Notes under the pieces: generated by a model
What the model was told of the DNA's origin: nothing
Databases searched by the model: none
Seen by the model: the letters and a program-made list of their open reading frames with translations, nothing else
Made by a program: the position numbers and the translations under genes
Shown: positions 25,650-36,763 of the stretch, piece by piece
Layout of the letters: each line of letters starts with the position of its first letter
Numbering within the stretch: position 1 is the first letter of the stretch
Assembly: GCF_036226765.1 (NCBI RefSeq)
Contig: NZ_CP109017.1
Span: 1,364,001 to 1,428,000, forward strand
Length of the DNA stretch: 64,000 nucleotides
Direction: 5' to 3'
Origin: Streptomyces sp. NBC_00670
Lineage (GTDB): Bacteria > Actinomycetota > Actinomycetes > Streptomycetales > Streptomycetaceae

Positions 25650-28888
<3,239 letters not shown>

Positions 28889-29612: not shown

Positions 29613-31082
29613 TCAGGACACCGGCAGCCGGACCGTGAACGTCGTCGCCCCCGGGCGGCTCGCCAGCGTCACCCCACCGCCGTGCGCCTCCACCACCGCC
29701 GCCACGATGGCGAGGCCCAGCCCCGCGCCGCCGCCCGCGGCGTCCGTACGGCGGCGCTCCGCGCGGGTGAAGCGTTCGAAGACGCCCGGCGCCACGTCCT
29801 CGGGCACACCCGGGCCGTCGTCGTGGACCGCGAGGACGGCCGTCGCCCCGTCGGACTCCAGCGACACCGTGACCTCCGTGCCCGCCGGCGTGTGCACCCG
29901 CGCGTTGGCCAGCAGGTTGGCCAGCACCTGGTGGAGCCGGTGGCCGTCGCCCGTCACCGTCACCGGTTCCTCGGGCAGTTCCATCGTCCAGCGGTGGCCG
30001 GGCCCCGCGGCCCGCGCGTCGGTGACCGAGTCCAGGACGAGCCGGGTCAGGTCGACCGCCGTCCGCTCCAGGCCCCGGCCCGCGTCCAGCCGGGCCAGCA
30101 GCAGCATCTCGTCGACCATCTCGCCCATCCGCGCCGACTCGGCGGCGATCCGCTCCAGGGCCCGGGTCACCTTCTCCGGCACCGGGTCCGGGTGCAGCAG
30201 CGCCAGCTCGGCGTGGCCGCGCACCGAGGCGACCGGGGTGCGCAGCTCGTGGCTGGCGTCGGCGGCGAACCGGCGCAGCCGCTCCTCGCTCGCGTGCCGC
30301 TTGGTCAGCGCGTCCTCGACATGGCCCAGCATCCGGTCGAAGGCGGTGGCGACCCGGCCCACCTCGCTGTGCGTGTCCGTTCCGCGGACGCGCGGCGGCA
30401 GCGCGACCTCGCCGCCGGCCAGCGGGAGTTCGCTGACCCGGGTGGCGGTGGCGGCGACCCGGTCGAGCGGCCGCAGCGACCAGCGCACCCACAGCGCGCC
30501 CGCCACGCCGGTCAGCGCGAGGGCGGCACCGAAGACGAGCCCGGCGACCAGTTCGAGCCGGTGCACGGTGGCCTCGACGGGCTCCAGTGGCAGCCCGGTG
30601 ACCAGCACGTCACCGTCCTTGCCCGCGGCCGCCGTCACCCGGTAGTCGTCCAGCGCCGACAGCTCGACGGTGTGGCCCCGGCCGTCGACCGGCACGGTGG
30701 CCAGGGCGCGCTCGTCATGGGCGGTGAGCGCGACGGACCGGGCGCCGGGGTCGCTGCCGGAGCGGACGACGGCGGCCTGGGTGACGTCCGCGCCGACCAG
30801 CCGGGCGCCGAAGGTCCCGGCGGGCTGGCGGCGGGTGTCGCCGTGCTCGTCCCCGTCGTGGTCGTCCGCGACCGACGGCCCGCCGTGCTCCAGGCTGGCC
30901 GGGAACCGTACGCCCGCCTCCTGGAGCTGCTCGTCCAGCCGCCCGGTGAGGAACCCGTCCAGCTCGACGACCGCGGCCACGCCGACCGCCGCGCAGCTCA
31001 CGGCGAGCAGCACGACGAGGCCGGCGGTCAGTCGCGCCCGCAGGGTGCGGAACCGGGGCAGCACCCGCCCGAACCCCGTCAT
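29613..31082 (-). CDS. Sensor histidine kinase
   Basis: 489 residues. Two membrane segments (LTAGLVVLLAVSCAAVGVAAVV near 18-39 and LVAGLVFGAALALTGVAGALWV near 178-200) flank an extracytoplasmic sensor of about 140 residues that is rich in Asp/His (VADDHDGDEHGDT). HAMP follows, then the H-box SHELRTPV with His278, N-box VLANLLANARVHT, G1 DDGPGVP and G2 GAGLGLAIV. The ATG overlaps the stop of the response-regulator gene (TGATG). The His/Asp-rich sensor patch could bind a metal; the regulated genes are redox proteins. Confidence 0.93.
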   Translation of the reverse strand: MTGFGRVLPRFRTLRARLTAGLVVLLAVSCAAVGVAAVVELDGFLTGRLDEQLQEAGVRFPASLEHGGPSVADDHDGDEHGDTRRQPAGTFGARLVGADVTQAAVVRSGSDPGARSVALTAHDERALATVPVDGRGHTVELSALDDYRVTAAAGKDGDVLVTGLPLEPVEATVHRLELVAGLVFGAALALTGVAGALWVRWSLRPLDRVAATATRVSELPLAGGEVALPPRVRGTDTHSEVGRVATAFDRMLGHVEDALTKRHASEERLRRFAADASHELRTPVASVRGHAELALLHPDPVPEKVTRALERIAAESARMGEMVDEMLLLARLDAGRGLERTAVDLTRLVLDSVTDARAAGPGHRWTMELPEEPVTVTGDGHRLHQVLANLLANARVHTPAGTEVTVSLESDGATAVLAVHDDGPGVPEDVAPGVFERFTRAERRRTDAAGGGAGLGLAIVAAVVEAHGGGVTLASRPGATTFTVRLPVS

Positions 31083-31837
31083 CAGGGGCCCGCCGTCGCC
31101 GGCTTGAGGACGTAGCCGGAGCCCCGCACCGTGTGGATCATCGGGGCGCGGCCCGCGTCGACCTTCTTGCGCAGATAGGAGATGTACAGCTCGACGACGT
31201 GCGCCTGGCCGCCGAAGTCGTAGGACCACACGCGGTCCAGGATCTGCGCCTTGCTGAGCACCCGGCGCGGGTTGCGCATCAGGAAGCGGAGCAGTTCGAA
31301 CTCGGTCGGCGACAGTTCGACGAGCGTCCCGGCCCGGGTGACCTCGCGGGCCTCCTCGTCCATCACCAGGTCGCCGACGGTGAGCCGGGGGCCGTCCGCG
31401 ACCTGGCGGGCCATGCCCGCGCGGCGCAGCAGTCCGCGCAGCCGGGCGACGACCTCCTCCAGGCTGAACGGTTTCGTCACGTAGTCGTCGCCGCCCGCCG
31501 TGATCCCCGCGATGCGGTCCTCGACGGCGTCCCGGGCGGTCAGGAAGAGCACGCACACGTCCGGCCGCACGGTGCGCAGCGCACGCAGCACGGCGAAGCC
31601 GTCGGTGTCGGGGAGCATCACGTCCAGGACGACGGCGTCCGGCAGCAGCCCGCGGGCGGCGGCGAGCGCCCCGGCGCCGTCGCCCGCGGAGCGCACCTGC
31701 CAGCCCTCGTAGCGCAGGGCGCCGGAGAGCACCTCGGCGAGGTCGGGGTCGTCGTCGACGACGAGCACCCTCAGCGGGGTGCCGTCGGGCCGGGCGAGCG
31801 CGGGGCGGCCGGTGCCGCGGGAGCGGGGCGTGTTCAT
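31082..31837 (-). CDS. OmpR/PhoB-family response regulator
   Basis: 251 residues. Receiver domain with acidic pocket DDD (28-30), phosphorylation site Asp72 (VVLDVMLP), Thr100 and Lys122. The winged-helix output domain occupies 150-250 (LSPTEFELLRFLMRNPRRVLSK, VVELYISYLRKKVD, IHTVRGSGYVLK). GGAGGGG lies immediately upstream of the ATG. Coupled with the histidine kinase and divergent from the reductase operon; two pairs of 11-bp-spaced direct repeats in the promoter are probable binding sites. Confidence 0.94.
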   Translation of the reverse strand: MNTPRSRGTGRPALARPDGTPLRVLVVDDDPDLAEVLSGALRYEGWQVRSAGDGAGALAAARGLLPDAVVLDVMLPDTDGFAVLRALRTVRPDVCVLFLTARDAVEDRIAGITAGGDDYVTKPFSLEEVVARLRGLLRRAGMARQVADGPRLTVGDLVMDEEAREVTRAGTLVELSPTEFELLRFLMRNPRRVLSKAQILDRVWSYDFGGQAHVVELYISYLRKKVDAGRAPMIHTVRGSGYVLKPATAGP

Positions 31838-31884
31838 CTCCCCTCCAGGATGCGGCCTGCGCGGGGCGGGCCGCCCGTGAGCGG

Positions 31885-31904
31885 CCTCTGAGTTTCCTCT
31901 GAGT
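31885..31904. promoter_or_regulatory. Direct-repeat pair, probable response-regulator site 1
   Basis: CCTCTGAGT occurs at 31885-31893 and again at 31896-31904, an exact 11-bp period typical of OmpR-family sites. It lies 48 bases upstream of the response-regulator ATG. Confidence 0.65.
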
Positions 31905-31993
31905 ACGCGCCGACTCCGTCCCGCCCGGCCTGCCGGAGTTCTCCCTCGCCCACGAGGCAGGACGGGGGTTCGGCCGCCGTCGTCGGGGCCCCG

Positions 31994-32012
31994 GCTCAGA
32001 GCCCGCTCAGAG
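31994..32012. promoter_or_regulatory. Direct-repeat pair, probable response-regulator site 2
   Basis: GCTCAGAG at 31994-32001 and 32005-32012, also with an 11-bp period. CTCAGAG is the reverse complement of the CTCTGAG core in site 1, so the pair points towards the reductase gene that starts at 32061. Confidence 0.65.
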
Positions 32013-32060
32013 GTTGCCGGGTGACGCTGGGCGCCGGCCGACGACGGAGAGGACACGCAC

Positions 32061-33422
32061 ATGACGACGGTCTACGGGCCCCCGGCGGCCACCGCCCGGC
32101 CGCCCGCCGCTCCCCGGCGCTCCCCCGCCGGTGCCGTCCTGGCCCTGCTGTGGGCCGGGGCCGCCGCGGTGCTCGCCCTGTGGTGGTACGGCACCGGCGC
32201 GGTGGCGGGCACCGCCGGGTGGCTGACCGGGGCGGGGCGGATCGCCGGGCTGCTGTGCGGGTACGCCTGCGCGGTGCTGGTCGGGCTGATGGCCCGCGTC
32301 CCGCTCCTGGAGGAGCGCGTCGGCTCGGACCGGGTGGCGCGCTGGCACGCCCGGGCCGGCCGGTACACGGTCTGCCTGCTGCTCGCGCACCTCGTGCTGA
32401 TCGTCGCCGGGTACGCCGCGCAGTTCCACGCCTCACTCGTCGACGAGGCACTCTCGGTCGTCCTCGACTACCCGGAGATGATCAAGGCGAGCCTGGGCAC
32501 GGCCGTCCTGCTCGCGGTCGGGATCGTCTCGGCGCGTGCGGTGCGCCGCAGGGTCTCGCACGAGTTCTGGTACTACGTCCACCTGGGGACGTACGCGGCG
32601 GTCTTCCTCACCTTCTGGCACCAGCTCGCCCTGGGCGCCGACTTCGTCGGGAACGCCGCCGCGCGCACCGCCTGGTACGCGCTCTATCTGGGCGTGGCGG
32701 CGCTGGTGCTGTGGTTCCGGGTCCTGGTGCCGGTCCGGCTCAATCTGCGGCACCGGCTGCGGGTGGAGTCCGTGCACCGGGAGGCGCCGGACGTGTACTC
32801 CGTCGTCGTACGGGGCCGGCGGCTGGAGCGGCTGGGGGCGCGCCCGGGGCAGTTCTTCCGGTGGCGGTTCCTGGCCCCGGGGCTGCGCTGGACCTCCTCG
32901 CCGTACTCCCTGTCCGCGCCGCCGCGCCCGGACCGGATGCGCGTCACGGTCAAGGCGCTCGGCGGCCACAGCGCGGCCGTGGCGCTGCTGCGGCCCGGCA
33001 CCCGGGTGTGGGCCGAGGGCCCGTACGGCTCGCTGACCGCCGACCGCGGCGGGGGCCGCGGGACGCTGCTGCTCGCGGGCGGCGTCGGGATCACCCCGCT
33101 GCGGGCGCTGTTCGAGACGCTGCCCGGCGACGTCACCCTCCTCTACCGGGCCCGTACCGCCGAGGACCTGGCGCTCGGCGGCGAGCTGGAGACCGTCGCG
33201 CGATGGCGCGGGCCGGGGGCGCGGGTGCTGTACGCGCTCAACGGCCCGCGCGGCGAGCGGCCGGACCTGGGCGCCGAGTCGCTGCGCCGGGCGGTGCCCG
33301 ATCTGGCCGAGCGGGACGTGTACCTGTGCGGCCCCCGGAGTTTCGCCGAGGACCTGTACCTGTCACTGCGGGCGGCCGGGGTCCCGGACCGCCGTATCCA
33401 CCACGAATCGTTCGAACTGTGA
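32061..33422 (+). CDS. Ferric-reductase-like haem/flavin membrane oxidoreductase, paralogue 1
   Basis: 453 residues. The N-terminal 220 residues are six membrane segments with four His arranged as two haem-b pairs: His96/His110 (RWHARAGRYTVCLLLAH) and His174/His187 (YYVHLGTYAAVFLTFWH). The C-terminal half is ferredoxin-NADP-reductase-like: FAD site PGQFFRWRF and SPYSLSAPP, NAD site GGVGITPL and YLCGPRSF, C-terminal HHESFEL. It would carry electrons from NAD(P)H through FAD and two haems across the membrane. The gene next to it encodes an exported FMN protein, a plausible acceptor. First gene of the operon controlled by the divergent two-component system. Confidence 0.9.
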   Translation: MTTVYGPPAATARPPAAPRRSPAGAVLALLWAGAAAVLALWWYGTGAVAGTAGWLTGAGRIAGLLCGYACAVLVGLMARVPLLEERVGSDRVARWHARAGRYTVCLLLAHLVLIVAGYAAQFHASLVDEALSVVLDYPEMIKASLGTAVLLAVGIVSARAVRRRVSHEFWYYVHLGTYAAVFLTFWHQLALGADFVGNAAARTAWYALYLGVAALVLWFRVLVPVRLNLRHRLRVESVHREAPDVYSVVVRGRRLERLGARPGQFFRWRFLAPGLRWTSSPYSLSAPPRPDRMRVTVKALGGHSAAVALLRPGTRVWAEGPYGSLTADRGGGRGTLLLAGGVGITPLRALFETLPGDVTLLYRARTAEDLALGGELETVARWRGPGARVLYALNGPRGERPDLGAESLRRAVPDLAERDVYLCGPRSFAEDLYLSLRAAGVPDRRIHHESFEL

Positions 33423-33432
33423 GGACGCCGAC

Positions 33433-33915
33433 GTGCACGCGTTGAGGAAGGACCGGCCGCTGCGCCGGATCGTACTGGCGAGCGCCGCCACCGTTTCCGG
33501 CATGGTGCTGCTGCTCGCGCTGAAGCCGCAGGGGGCGCAGAGCGGGGCCGACGCGACCGCGCCCGCCCCGTCGGCCTCATCGGCCTCATCGGCCCGGCCG
33601 GCCCCGTCGGCCTCCTCGGCGAGCGGCAACGGCAGCGGCCGCCGGGCCGTCACGGGCAGCGAGGTGCAGACGCGCTGGGGCCCCGTCCAGGTGAAGGTCA
33701 CGGTCTCCGGCGGCAGGGTCACCGACGTGGCCGCCGTCGAGTACCCGACCGAGAACCCGCGCGACCAGCAGATCAACTCCTACGCCCTGCCCCAACTGCG
33801 CACCGAGGCGCTGGCCGCGCAGAGCGCGGACATCGACACGGTCTCCGGCGCCACCTACACCAGCGAGGGCTACAAGCAGTCCCTCCAATCCGCGCTGGAC
33901 GCCGCCGGGCTGTGA
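33433..33915 (+). CDS. Exported FMN-binding domain protein 1
   Basis: 160 residues. N-terminal membrane anchor or signal (RRIVLASAATVSGMVLLLALK), a Ser/Ala/Pro-rich linker of about 40 residues, then an FMN_bind domain. The motif SADIDTVSGATYTSEGY contains the D-x-x-S-G-A-T flavinylation site, with Thr141 the expected residue for covalent FMN attached by ApbE. It begins 10 bases after the reductase stop. It probably receives electrons on the outer face of the membrane. Confidence 0.9.
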   Translation: MHALRKDRPLRRIVLASAATVSGMVLLLALKPQGAQSGADATAPAPSASSASSARPAPSASSASGNGSGRRAVTGSEVQTRWGPVQVKVTVSGGRVTDVAAVEYPTENPRDQQINSYALPQLRTEALAAQSADIDTVSGATYTSEGYKQSLQSALDAAGL

Positions 33916-34043
33916 ACCGCGGAGGCGCGCCGCGCGGAAGCCCGGCTGTGAACCCCCGCGACCGTTGAACACCCGGCACGTGCCGCCCGTACTCCAGGCC
34001 AAGCGGGCCCCGGGCCCGACCACGCAGGACCACGGAGGAGACC

Positions 34044-35423
34044 GTGTCCACGATCGCCGGTGGCCGCGCCGCGCGGCGCCAGACGATGCGCCGCATCCGC
34101 CCACGCCGCTCCCCCGCCGTCCCGCTGCTGCTCGCCGTCTGGGCGGGCGCGGCCGCGGTGCTGTGGCTGTGGTGGACGAACACGCCGTCCCTGGCCGACA
34201 CCAACGCCAAGATCCTCAACGCGGGCCGGATCACCGGACTGCTCGCCGGCTACCTCATGGCCCTGGTGGTGCTCCAGATGGCCCGGGTGCCCGCGCTGGA
34301 ACGCCGGGTGGGCTCGGACCGGGTGGCCCGCTGGCACGCGATGAGCGGCCGCTACACCATCAGCCTCGTCGTCGCCCACGTCGTCCTGACGATGTACGGG
34401 TATGCCTTGCAGGCCGGGAAGGGGTTCGGCGACATCGTCCAGCAGACGGTCGACTCCGTCGGACAGCTGCCCGACCTGGGCAAGGCGGTGATCGGCACCG
34501 GGCTGCTGGTGCTGATCGCGCTGCTGTCCATGGGACCGGTGCGCCGCCGCATCCCGTACGACTTCTGGTACCACGTCCATCTGCTCACCTACGCGGTGGT
34601 GTTCCTGACCTTCTGGCACCAGCTCTCCACCGGCAACGACTTCGTCGTGCAGCCCACCGCCAAGACGTTCTGGTACGCGCTGTACGGCTCGGTGACCGCG
34701 CTGGTGGTGTGGTACCGCATCCTCACCCCGCTGCGGCTGAACCTGCGGCACCGGATGCGGGTCGAGGCGGTGATCGAGGAGACGCCCGGGGTGGTGTCGG
34801 TGCTGATCACCGGGCGCCGGCTGCACCGGATCGGCGCCGAGCCGGGGCAGTTCTTCCGCTGGCGGTTCCTGGCGCCGGGGATGCGGTTCAGCTCGCACCC
34901 GTACTCGCTCTCGGCGGCGCCCCGCCCGAACATGCTGCGCATCACCGTCAAGGCCATCGGCGACCACAGCTCCGCGCTGCGCGGGCTGCGCCCCGGCACC
35001 CGGGTGTGGGCCGAGGGCCCGTACGGGGCGATGACCGCGCAGCGGCGCAGCCGGGGCAAGGTGCTCCTGGTGGCGGGCGGGGTCGGCATCACGCCGATGC
35101 GGGCGCTGTTCGAGACGCTGCCCGGCGCCGCCGGTGATCTGACGCTGCTGTACCGGGCCAACACCACGCAGGACCTGGCGCTGTGGGACGAGCTGGCGCA
35201 GATCGCCCGGGAGCGCGGGGCGCGGCTGATGTACGCGGTCAACAGCCCCGAGGGGGAGCGGCCGGACATCTCCGCCGACACCCTGCGCCGCAAACTGCCG
35301 GACATCGACCGGCACGACGTCTTCATGTGCGGGCCGCCCGGCTTCGCACAGCAGGTCTACGAAGCACTGCGCGGCGCAGGCGTCCCCGCCCGCCGCATCC
35401 ATCACGAGTCGTTCGAGATGTAG
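34044..35423 (+). CDS. Ferric-reductase-like haem/flavin membrane oxidoreductase, paralogue 2
   Basis: 459 residues from a GTG with GGAGGAG 3 bases upstream. Same architecture as paralogue 1, with about two thirds similar residues by eye: haem pairs His98/His112 and His179/His192, FAD site PGQFFRWRF and HPYSLSAAP, NAD site GGVGITPM and FMCGPPGF, C-terminal HHESFEM. Differences lie mainly in the loop near 123-150. It has its own FMN-protein partner just downstream, so the pair of genes was duplicated as a unit. Confidence 0.9.
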   Translation: MSTIAGGRAARRQTMRRIRPRRSPAVPLLLAVWAGAAAVLWLWWTNTPSLADTNAKILNAGRITGLLAGYLMALVVLQMARVPALERRVGSDRVARWHAMSGRYTISLVVAHVVLTMYGYALQAGKGFGDIVQQTVDSVGQLPDLGKAVIGTGLLVLIALLSMGPVRRRIPYDFWYHVHLLTYAVVFLTFWHQLSTGNDFVVQPTAKTFWYALYGSVTALVVWYRILTPLRLNLRHRMRVEAVIEETPGVVSVLITGRRLHRIGAEPGQFFRWRFLAPGMRFSSHPYSLSAAPRPNMLRITVKAIGDHSSALRGLRPGTRVWAEGPYGAMTAQRRSRGKVLLVAGGVGITPMRALFETLPGAAGDLTLLYRANTTQDLALWDELAQIARERGARLMYAVNSPEGERPDISADTLRRKLPDIDRHDVFMCGPPGFAQQVYEALRGAGVPARRIHHESFEM

Positions 35424-35451
35424 CGACGGGACGCACGGGAGTTCGGTAGCG

Positions 35452-35910
35452 ATGAAGAAGAGCCACCCCATACGCCGGATCGTGCTGGCCTCGGCCGCCA
35501 CGGTGTCCGGGATCGTGCTGCTGCTGTCGCTGAAGCCGTCGTCCGGCCCGGCCGGCGCGGTCGCCGACGGCCCGGCGCCGCAGCGGACGGCGGCGGCCCA
35601 GGAGTCGCCGCAGGGCGGCACCGGGAAGCAGGCGGGCGCGACGACGGTCATGGGCGACGCCGCCCAGACCCAGTACGGCACGGTCCAGGTGCGTCTCACC
35701 CTCGCCGACGGGAAAATCACCAAGGCGGAGGCGGTGCGGGCGCCGAGCGGCGGCCACAGCACGGAGGTCACCAACGACGCGGTGCCCAAGCTCAACCAGG
35801 AGGCCGTCAGCGCACAGAGCGCCGACATCGACGCGGTGTCGGGGGCGACGTACACCAGTGGCGGCTATCTGAAGTCCCTCCAGTCCGCGATCGACAAGGC
35901 CGGTGGCTGA
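35452..35910 (+). CDS. Exported FMN-binding domain protein 2
   Basis: 152 residues. N-terminal anchor RRIVLASAATVSGIVLLLSLK is almost the same as in protein 1; the linker differs. The FMN_bind domain has SADIDAVSGATYTSGGY with Thr133 as the predicted flavinylated residue. It follows paralogue 2 after 28 bases and overlaps apbE by 8 bases, consistent with the transferase being made together with its substrates. Confidence 0.9.
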   Translation: MKKSHPIRRIVLASAATVSGIVLLLSLKPSSGPAGAVADGPAPQRTAAAQESPQGGTGKQAGATTVMGDAAQTQYGTVQVRLTLADGKITKAEAVRAPSGGHSTEVTNDAVPKLNQEAVSAQSADIDAVSGATYTSGGYLKSLQSAIDKAGG

Positions 35911-36763
35911 CCGGGTGGGCGAGGAACGAGTAGGCGAGGAACGAGTGGGCGAGGACGGGGTGAGTGACGACCGGGTGGGCGAGCCCGCGGACGCGCCGTC
36001 CGTGGTGCGTCACGCCGAGGAGGTGATGGGGACCGTCTTCTCCTTCGACGTGCGCGGTGGTGATCCGGACGCCGTGCGGCGGGCGCTGACCGAGGCGGTC
36101 GCCGGACTCCACCGGGTGGACGAGGTCTTCAGCACCTACCGCGAGCACAGCCAGATCTCCCGGCTCGCCCGGGGGGAGCTGGCCGTGGAGGAGTGCGATC
36201 CGGAGGTCGCCGAGGTGCTGGCGCTGGGTGCCGAGGCCGAGCGCCGCAGCGAGGGCTGGTTCAGCGTGCGCTACGAGGGCCGGCTCGACCCGACCGGGAT
36301 CGTCAAGGGCTGGGCCTGTGAGCGGGCCGCCCGTGCGCTGGCGGCGGCCGGGGCGACGGGGGTCAGCGTCAACGGCGGTGGCGACGTGCAGTTGTACGGC
36401 GTGCCCGGGCCGCAGCGGCCCTGGCGGGTCGGGATCTCCGATCCGTTGCGGCCGGGTGGGCTCGCGGCGGTGGTGTCGGCGGCGGGGGTGGAGCGGTTGG
36501 CGGTCGCCACGTCGGGGACGGCGGAGCGGGGGGCACACATCGTGGATCCGCGGACGAAGCGTTCCGCGGTGACCGACCTTGTGGCGGTCACCGTGGTGGG
36601 GCCGGCGCTCACGTGGGTGGACGCGTGGGCGACGGCGGCGTTCGCGATGGGGTCGCGGGAGGCGTTGGTGTGGTTGGAGTCCCTCCCGGACGCGGAGGCG
36701 CTGCTGATCACGGCGGGGAACGAGGTGCGGGCGACGAGCGGGTTGGCTTCTCGGCTGGGGTGA
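35903..36763 (+). CDS. apbE: FAD:protein FMN transferase
   Basis: 286 residues from the GTG at 35903; an alternative GTG at 35960 skips the odd N-terminal repeat. Family motifs: EEVMGTVFSFDV near the start, PTGIVKGWACERAARAL, VNGGGDVQLYG, GAHIVDPRTKRS and DAWATAAFAMG with the Mg ligands Asp and Thr. ApbE splits FAD and links FMN to Thr in FMN_bind proteins; two such substrates are encoded just upstream. No clear signal peptide is seen, so the site of action is uncertain. The first codons contain a 15-bp tandem repeat giving V-G-E-E-R. Confidence 0.92.
   Translation: MADRVGEERVGEERVGEDGVSDDRVGEPADAPSVVRHAEEVMGTVFSFDVRGGDPDAVRRALTEAVAGLHRVDEVFSTYREHSQISRLARGELAVEECDPEVAEVLALGAEAERRSEGWFSVRYEGRLDPTGIVKGWACERAARALAAAGATGVSVNGGGDVQLYGVPGPQRPWRVGISDPLRPGGLAAVVSAAGVERLAVATSGTAERGAHIVDPRTKRSAVTDLVAVTVVGPALTWVDAWATAAFAMGSREALVWLESLPDAEALLITAGNEVRATSGLASRLG

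Follow-up and report, generated by a model that had tools for sequence, protein, structure and literature searches.

A flavin-linked reductase cluster at the arg locus of Streptomyces is probably composed of two older, separately controlled modules

Introduction

The closest described relatives of the seven-gene cluster analysed here are the MsrQ-like flavinylation systems (Meheust et al. 2021, PMC8238504), in which a PF01794 membrane haem protein with a C-terminal PF00175 domain is encoded in a cluster with FMN_bind proteins and apbE. The available part of that account reports them as broadly distributed in Actinobacteria, with 1797 clusters. Our cluster lies in a 64,000-nucleotide stretch of the Streptomyces sp. 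NBC_00670 genome (contig NZ_CP109017.1, positions 1,364,001 to 1,428,000; hereafter the window, whose own numbering is used for coordinates) and encodes a sensor histidine kinase, a response regulator, a membrane reductase (reductase1) with an FMN_bind protein (FMN1), a second such pair (reductase2 and FMN2) and the flavin transferase ApbE. It is located between argR and a gene that, from its sequence, we take to be argH (the arg locus). As in the MsrQ-like systems, PF01794 genes are clustered with FMN_bind and apbE genes and the haem-ligand histidines are conserved; unlike them, the cluster has an ApbE that shows no export signal, and the part of the published account available to us mentions neither two paralogous modules, nor the restriction of a regulator to one of them, nor the direct repeat and the extracytoplasmic function (ECF)-type promoter described below.

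Three further systems resemble individual components. SaFMN3 of Streptomyces azureus, for which covalent attachment of flavin mononucleotide (FMN) is reported to be established biochemically and by a crystal structure (PMC10339131, PDB id: 8p2a), is a close homologue of FMN2 with the same flavinylation site, but it has three FMN domains and the window's FMN2 has one. The Streptococcus pneumoniae NADPH oxidase SpNOX (PDB id: 8qt6) shares with reductase2 the succession of haem-bearing helices and a flavin adenine dinucleotide (FAD)/NADPH domain, but the two are only 18% identical in a structural alignment and the reductases described here are linked to FMN_bind and apbE genes. The Mycobacterium tuberculosis sigma factor SigL and its redox-sensitive anti-sigma factor RslA (PMC2877774) are the best PDB matches of a putative sigma/anti-sigma pair encoded elsewhere in the genome, and the HxxxCxxC motif is common to both systems; the pair studied here is, however, from Streptomyces, its anti-sigma match is weak, and its redox sensitivity is putative.

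The basic machinery (haem reductase, FMN_bind protein and apbE) is thus of a known kind, and what is added here is the split into modules and two control signals. We found no account of the conditions under which MsrQ-like flavin export is used in Actinobacteria, and none, among the matches listed in the open-licence literature, that deals with the regulator or the repeat or connects a SigL-type factor with this cluster. Two conserved, separable control signals make the question of use accessible to direct promoter tests.

Two modules with separate distributions

The initial annotation described the cluster as a single, self-contained module with its own two-component system in control. Its distribution points instead to two modules: module A, consisting of the kinase, the regulator, reductase1 and FMN1, and module B, consisting of reductase2, FMN2 and apbE at the arg locus. 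In 150 sampled Streptomyces genomes, 56 (that of the window included; a partial match in G001 was left out) carry a full-length match to reductase2 with at least 80% identity. The reductase1–FMN1 pair adjoins reductase2 at 22 of these 56 loci, called fused below, and was not seen at the other 34, of which 33 are clear and one (G130) is cut 237 bases upstream. The regulator follows copy 1. Of the 22 fused loci, 21 have it, the remaining one (G095) being cut by a contig end, with a kinase–regulator pair and its repeat located on another contig (L096) of the same genome. No regulator was found at any of the other 34 loci; at 32 of them the view extends roughly 3 kb or further upstream (more than 5 kb in 13), which gives 0/32 without copy 1. 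Among the best 80 named loci, a divergent regulator is found at 76; three of the misses are contig ends and the fourth is L177, described below.

Module A is found outside the arg locus as well. At three loci (L065, L071 and L073), a free-standing reductase1 is accompanied by the kinase and the regulator with no apbE nearby, and in each of these genomes (G091, G107 and G110) the arg locus (L064, L070 and L072) contains module B including apbE. Elsewhere, free-standing module A has its own apbE (L074, L076, L078–L082, L084, L085 and L243–L249), and at L077, L194, L195 and L197, where no reductase2 was seen, apbE comes after FMN1. In relatives, the halves of the cluster are separable while each half is tightly linked internally, so that of the gene linkage originally proposed only the part within each half stands. 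In the 7.58-Mb genome of the window, the single apbE match, both FMN_bind matches and both PF01794 matches all fall in this cluster.

Reductase1 and reductase2 share about 60% identity, and copies 1 and 2 form separate supported clades (100/99 and 100/100) in a tree of 70 reductases. Because of this separation, the pair is not a recent tandem duplication. On the 56-tip reductase2 tree, the fused state requires at least four changes on supported branches and nine by parsimony. A phylum-wide search with an alignment of module A reductases matched 16 of 296 genomes at E ≤ 1e-60. At nine loci from outside Streptomyces (L230–L238), reductase, FMN_bind and apbE genes are together in every case, and a divergent regulator next to the reductase is missing from all nine. 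In a more distant Streptomyces reductase–FMN–apbE lineage, two loci (L095 and L239) have a two-component system that is likewise divergent but not the same one, which suggests repeated recruitment of such systems; in its third sampled member (L094), no two-component system is in view.

Taken together, the cluster likely represents two older modules that have come to stand side by side and are controlled separately. The alternative is a single operon under one two-component system, in which transcripts of module A reach apbE and all five genes are under the regulator. Such an operon would suit five genes that lie on the same strand, with no terminator-like site between FMN1 and reductase2, and whose adjacency is kept in 22 of the 56 genomes; it is nevertheless improbable, given that module B stands without an adjacent copy 1 at 33 loci (one more being cut too near to judge), that module A is found alone elsewhere, and that 21 of the 22 fused loci retain a promoter sequence of module B's own.

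Putative control signals of the two modules

The signal of module A is a direct repeat, CTCTGAG-N4-CTCTGAG. Two copies lie on opposite strands between the regulator and reductase1, and the window's genome has no other perfect match. The repeat was first noticed in the window, which is itself no independent evidence for it. Allowing up to two mismatches, it is present at all 21 evaluable fused loci of the 56-genome set (perfect in 16), at 76 of 76 named loci (perfect in 56; 2 of 760 first-order Markov copies) and at 21 of 21 loci of a partly overlapping set, and it was found upstream of reductase2 in 0 of 88 cases. Across the 150 genomes, perfect sites number 43, compared to two for the reversed pattern; 30 are at module A promoters, one precedes a related regulator without a reductase and 12 are elsewhere. 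Direct repeats with an 11-base period are usual for OmpR-type regulators, and the regulator here, with its receiver and winged-helix domains, and the kinase, with HisKA and HATPase domains, belong to the OmpR/PhoB type. The divergent kinase and regulator would switch module A through the repeats, to which the regulator is predicted to bind. Separately, the related regulator–kinase pair (L116:1450-3016) has the same direct repeat ahead of it and no reductase in view.

The signal of module B, TGAAC-N17-CGTA, was found by aligning the regions upstream of reductase2 at fused and other loci. It is present in 55 of the 56 genomes, always with a gap of 17 bases: at all 34 loci without an adjacent copy 1 and at 21 of the 22 fused ones. 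In a larger, overlapping set it precedes module B in 89 of 92 cases and module A in 0 of 107 (0 of 1840 Markov copies). A scan of the locus for sigma-70-type promoters found none. The pattern resembles an ECF-type promoter. The elements reported for S. coelicolor sigma-E promoters, in the available part of the source, are defined by AAC and TC (PMC6767563), unlike the CGTA found here.

The window's genome contains 38 matches to this pattern, compared to six for its reverse. Among the genes immediately downstream of them are a Rieske lipoprotein gene, three genes for proteins of one probably exported family, which we call dupX, and an ECF sigma factor gene; other matches are intragenic. The promoter is conserved, the window's genome included, at 27 of 30 Rieske loci and at 16 of 16 arg-locus dupX genes (antisense control, 1 of 530), and precedes the sigma gene itself in exact form at 19 of 30 loci (control, 0 of 210). 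The best PDB match of the sigma protein is M. tuberculosis SigL (7.6e-35; the next is 2e-13), and it clears the cut-off of NCBIfam PRK09645 (267.5 vs 202). The product of the following gene matches 3hug_B weakly (4.9e-5) and has the HxxxCxxC zinc motif at 30 of 30 loci; we take 3hug to be the SigL/RslA complex. In the window's genome, the SigL-type sigma gene and the zinc-motif anti-sigma gene (L268:42-1456, minus strand) have their own TGAAC-N17-CGTA promoter. Judging from these sequence patterns, module B is most likely transcribed from TGAAC-N17-CGTA by the SigL-type ECF sigma factor, held by the zinc-type anti-sigma factor. For RslA, oxidation is reported to cause loss of zinc and of affinity for the sigma factor (PMC2877774). 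In S. lividans, deletions of two genes called SigL1 and SigL, one of which may be the orthologue of the present sigma factor, are reported to have raised diamide tolerance (PMC6295645).

The Rieske lipoprotein gene (L253:1501-2137), which has a twin-arginine-like start, lies behind the same promoter pattern and is the first candidate electron partner to be named by a shared promoter. A dedicated partnership was rejected since the gene and its promoter are also found where the 80%-identity reductase2 orthologue is absent (e.g. G005, G006, G018 and G019). The dupX gene of the window (27321-28169) encodes a probably exported protein with no Pfam or NCBIfam family that contains a near-identical pair of repeats, agreeing at 93 of 95 residues; its promoter is at 27227-27252, and two paralogues in the genome (L263 and L285) carry the promoter as well. 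The pattern also lies upstream of two further genes (L283 and L284), whose products presumably resemble secreted serine proteases.

The cluster might instead be an assimilatory reductase of iron or copper that is induced by metal. The extracytoplasmic domain of the kinase has a conserved acidic stretch, in which D78, D82 and R84 are invariant in 47 sequences; D[GA]D[ENQ]..DTR, allowing for a short gap of variable length, is found in 85 of 102 kinases, and the other 17 deviate while keeping part of the stretch. In the AlphaFold2 model (predicted local distance difference test, pLDDT, 79.3; predicted template modelling score, pTM, 0.43), the sensor part is a long helix with a small sheet, and residues 67–79, adjoining the acidic stretch, are poorly ordered. 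An acidic sensor would be in keeping with metal induction, as would the top NCBIfam model of the kinase, a heavy-metal sensor that scores far below its cut-off, and the VIT1 iron transporter reported in 153 MsrQ-like clusters (PMC8238504). A metal reductase is nonetheless doubtful: in a rough gene call, no metal transporter recurs beside 34 free-standing loci, and CopC, considered as a regulon member after a promoter match in the window's genome, was rejected with a match at only 4 of 30 loci. A shared neighbour as the electron acceptor was likewise dropped, the commonest neighbour family being generic-looking and present at 7 of the 34 free-standing loci (same gene call, GC-based).

Several observations weigh against the reading of two separately controlled modules. 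In S. mexicanus (L177), reductase1–FMN1 stands beside module B, and the 6 kb upstream contain neither a kinase nor a regulator. The module B promoter is missing at one fused locus (G003) and from three of the 92 upstream regions of the larger set, and 11 of the 30 sigma genes have no exact promoter of their own, several of them having TGAAT or TGAGY variants. As 13 of the 43 perfect repeats are away from module A promoters, more than one regulator may recognise the sequence. The only terminator-like site found is inside apbE, at chance level; because none separates FMN1 from reductase2, transcripts of module A may continue into module B. Finally, most loci belong to a single genus and cannot count as independent, and the named-locus set, the larger upstream set and the 21-locus repeat set partly overlap.

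Proposed electron path and flavinylation

On balance, we regard it as probable that the cluster combines two old paralogous transmembrane modules for flavin electron export that share a flavin transferase and carry separate control signals. Module B would provide a standing or redox-responsive flow together with the transferase, and module A would add conditional capacity. In each, electrons would pass from cytoplasmic NAD(P)H via FAD and two haems of the membrane reductase to covalent FMN on a membrane-anchored protein at the outer face, a path suggested by the domains, the invariant haem ligands and the crystallised homologue. The route from NAD(P)H to an outside acceptor had been anticipated in the initial annotation; it fits the domains, the motifs and the published MsrQ-like model, and only its single-module frame had to be given up.

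The haem-ligand histidines noted earlier are present in both reductases (residues 96, 110, 174 and 187 in copy 1; 98, 112, 179 and 192 in copy 2). All four are invariant in eight module A reductases and across 46 aligned reductases that reach down to 28% identity to reductase2. FAD and NAD sites had been assigned to both copies: PF01794 and PF00175 are found in both, but the FAD-binding PF08022 is detected at E ≤ 0.001 in copy 2 only. The AlphaFold2 model of reductase2 (pLDDT 87.4) has SpNOX as its best fold match in the PDB (template modelling score 0.71/0.81). This likeness, which concerns the fold only, raises the possibility that the reductases are bacterial NADPH oxidases reducing oxygen outside the cell with the FMN proteins as accessories, and reduced SaFMN3 is indeed reported to use dioxygen (PMC10339131). 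The tight linkage with FMN_bind and apbE argues for the flavoprotein as the direct acceptor. Oxygen reactivity is, moreover, common among free flavoproteins, and an NADPH oxidase is quite improbable.

Both FMN proteins contain the D-x-x-S-G-A-T flavinylation motif (D135–T141 in FMN1 and D127–T133 in FMN2), as first noted, and match the crystallised SaFMN3 domain (FMN1, E 4e-24; FMN2, E 6.5e-34, with 64 of 88 residues identical and the site shared). No phage family matched either of them. With one FMN domain each, FMN1 and FMN2 of the window are not of the multi-flavinylated type. Across the 56 genomes, FMN2 is single-domain in 4, has two domains in 33 and three in 19 (one of the 56, L427, is near a contig end), i.e. 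more than one in 52; the single-domain form seen in the window is rare. A trade of FMN-domain number against module A was considered when a first, similarity-biased set hinted that single-domain FMN2 occurs only beside copy 1. Over all 56 genomes, the counts for one, two and three domains are 2/16/16 without an adjacent copy 1 and 2/17/3 at fused loci (Fisher p 0.011), and the idea was dropped since independent pairs on the reductase2 tree give no support.

The FMN proteins had been described as exported. A hydrophobic N-terminal segment suggests as much, and the positive-inside rule would place the proteins on the outer face. Of the 194 frames that could be read, which comprise 89 distinct segments, 192 have Arg-Arg immediately ahead of the membrane segment, the exceptions being RH in L088 and RK in L243; 15 of 209 frames were unreadable, among which L094, L095 and L239 show Lys-Arg. 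Because the preceding residue is mostly hydrophobic and the segment itself very hydrophobic, the twin-arginine reading is weak, and Arg-Arg could be an ordinary positive-inside anchor.

ApbE scores 151.6 bits against PF02424 (cut-off 25.6), and its PDB matches are ApbE enzymes. A scan for a 15-residue stretch with a mean hydropathy of at least 1.9 in the 60 residues before the anchor motif found none in the 113 of 122 frames with that motif (nine were unreadable; the window value is −0.31), and for this reason ApbE looks cytoplasmic. A cytoplasmic ApbE is reported from Klebsiella (PMC12052999). The Arg-Arg of the FMN proteins would fit flavinylation before twin-arginine export, and also an ordinary membrane anchor; the site of covalent FMN attachment becomes a testable question. 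A tentative extension, rather unlikely to hold, is that the FMN proteins cross the membrane folded and flavinylated by a cytoplasmic ApbE via the twin-arginine route, that a SigL/zinc-anti-sigma redox circuit sets a standing level through module B with the outer Rieske lipoprotein as electron partner, and that module A is brought in when needed by a kinase sensing cations or redox state.

Gene calls

Open reading frame coordinates and Pfam matches agree with the initial annotation in the presence and types of all seven genes and in the 8-base overlap of FMN2 and apbE. The span had been given as starting at 31082, which misses the kinase.

Table 1. Features of the cluster in window coordinates, with the evidence for each
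Feature	Position	Strand	Evidence
HK, sensor histidine kinase, module A	29613-31082	-	Pfam HisKA, HATPase_c, HAMP
RR, OmpR/PhoB-type response regulator, module A	31082-31837	-	PF00072 (Response_reg), PF00486 (Trans_reg_C)
Putative operator, direct repeat CTCTGAG-N4-CTCTGAG, regulator-proximal	31886-31903	+	Conservation across loci
Second CTCTGAG-N4-CTCTGAG repeat, reductase1-proximal	31995-32012	-	Conservation across loci
reductase1 (copy 1), module A membrane haem/FAD/NAD(P)H reductase	32061-33422	+	PF01794, PF00175; four His invariant
FMN1, FMN_bind protein of module A with a membrane anchor and a single flavinylation site (Thr141)	33433-33915	+	PF04205, motif, 8p2a match
Putative ECF-type promoter TGAAC-N17-CGTA, module B	33966-33991	+	Conservation upstream of reductase2
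reductase2 (copy 2), module B membrane haem/FAD/NAD(P)H reductase	34044-35423	+	PF01794, PF00175, PF08022
FMN2, FMN_bind protein of module B with a membrane anchor and a single flavinylation site (Thr133)	35452-35910	+	PF04205, 8p2a match
apbE, flavin transferase without visible export signal	35903-36763	+	PF02424, PDB matches

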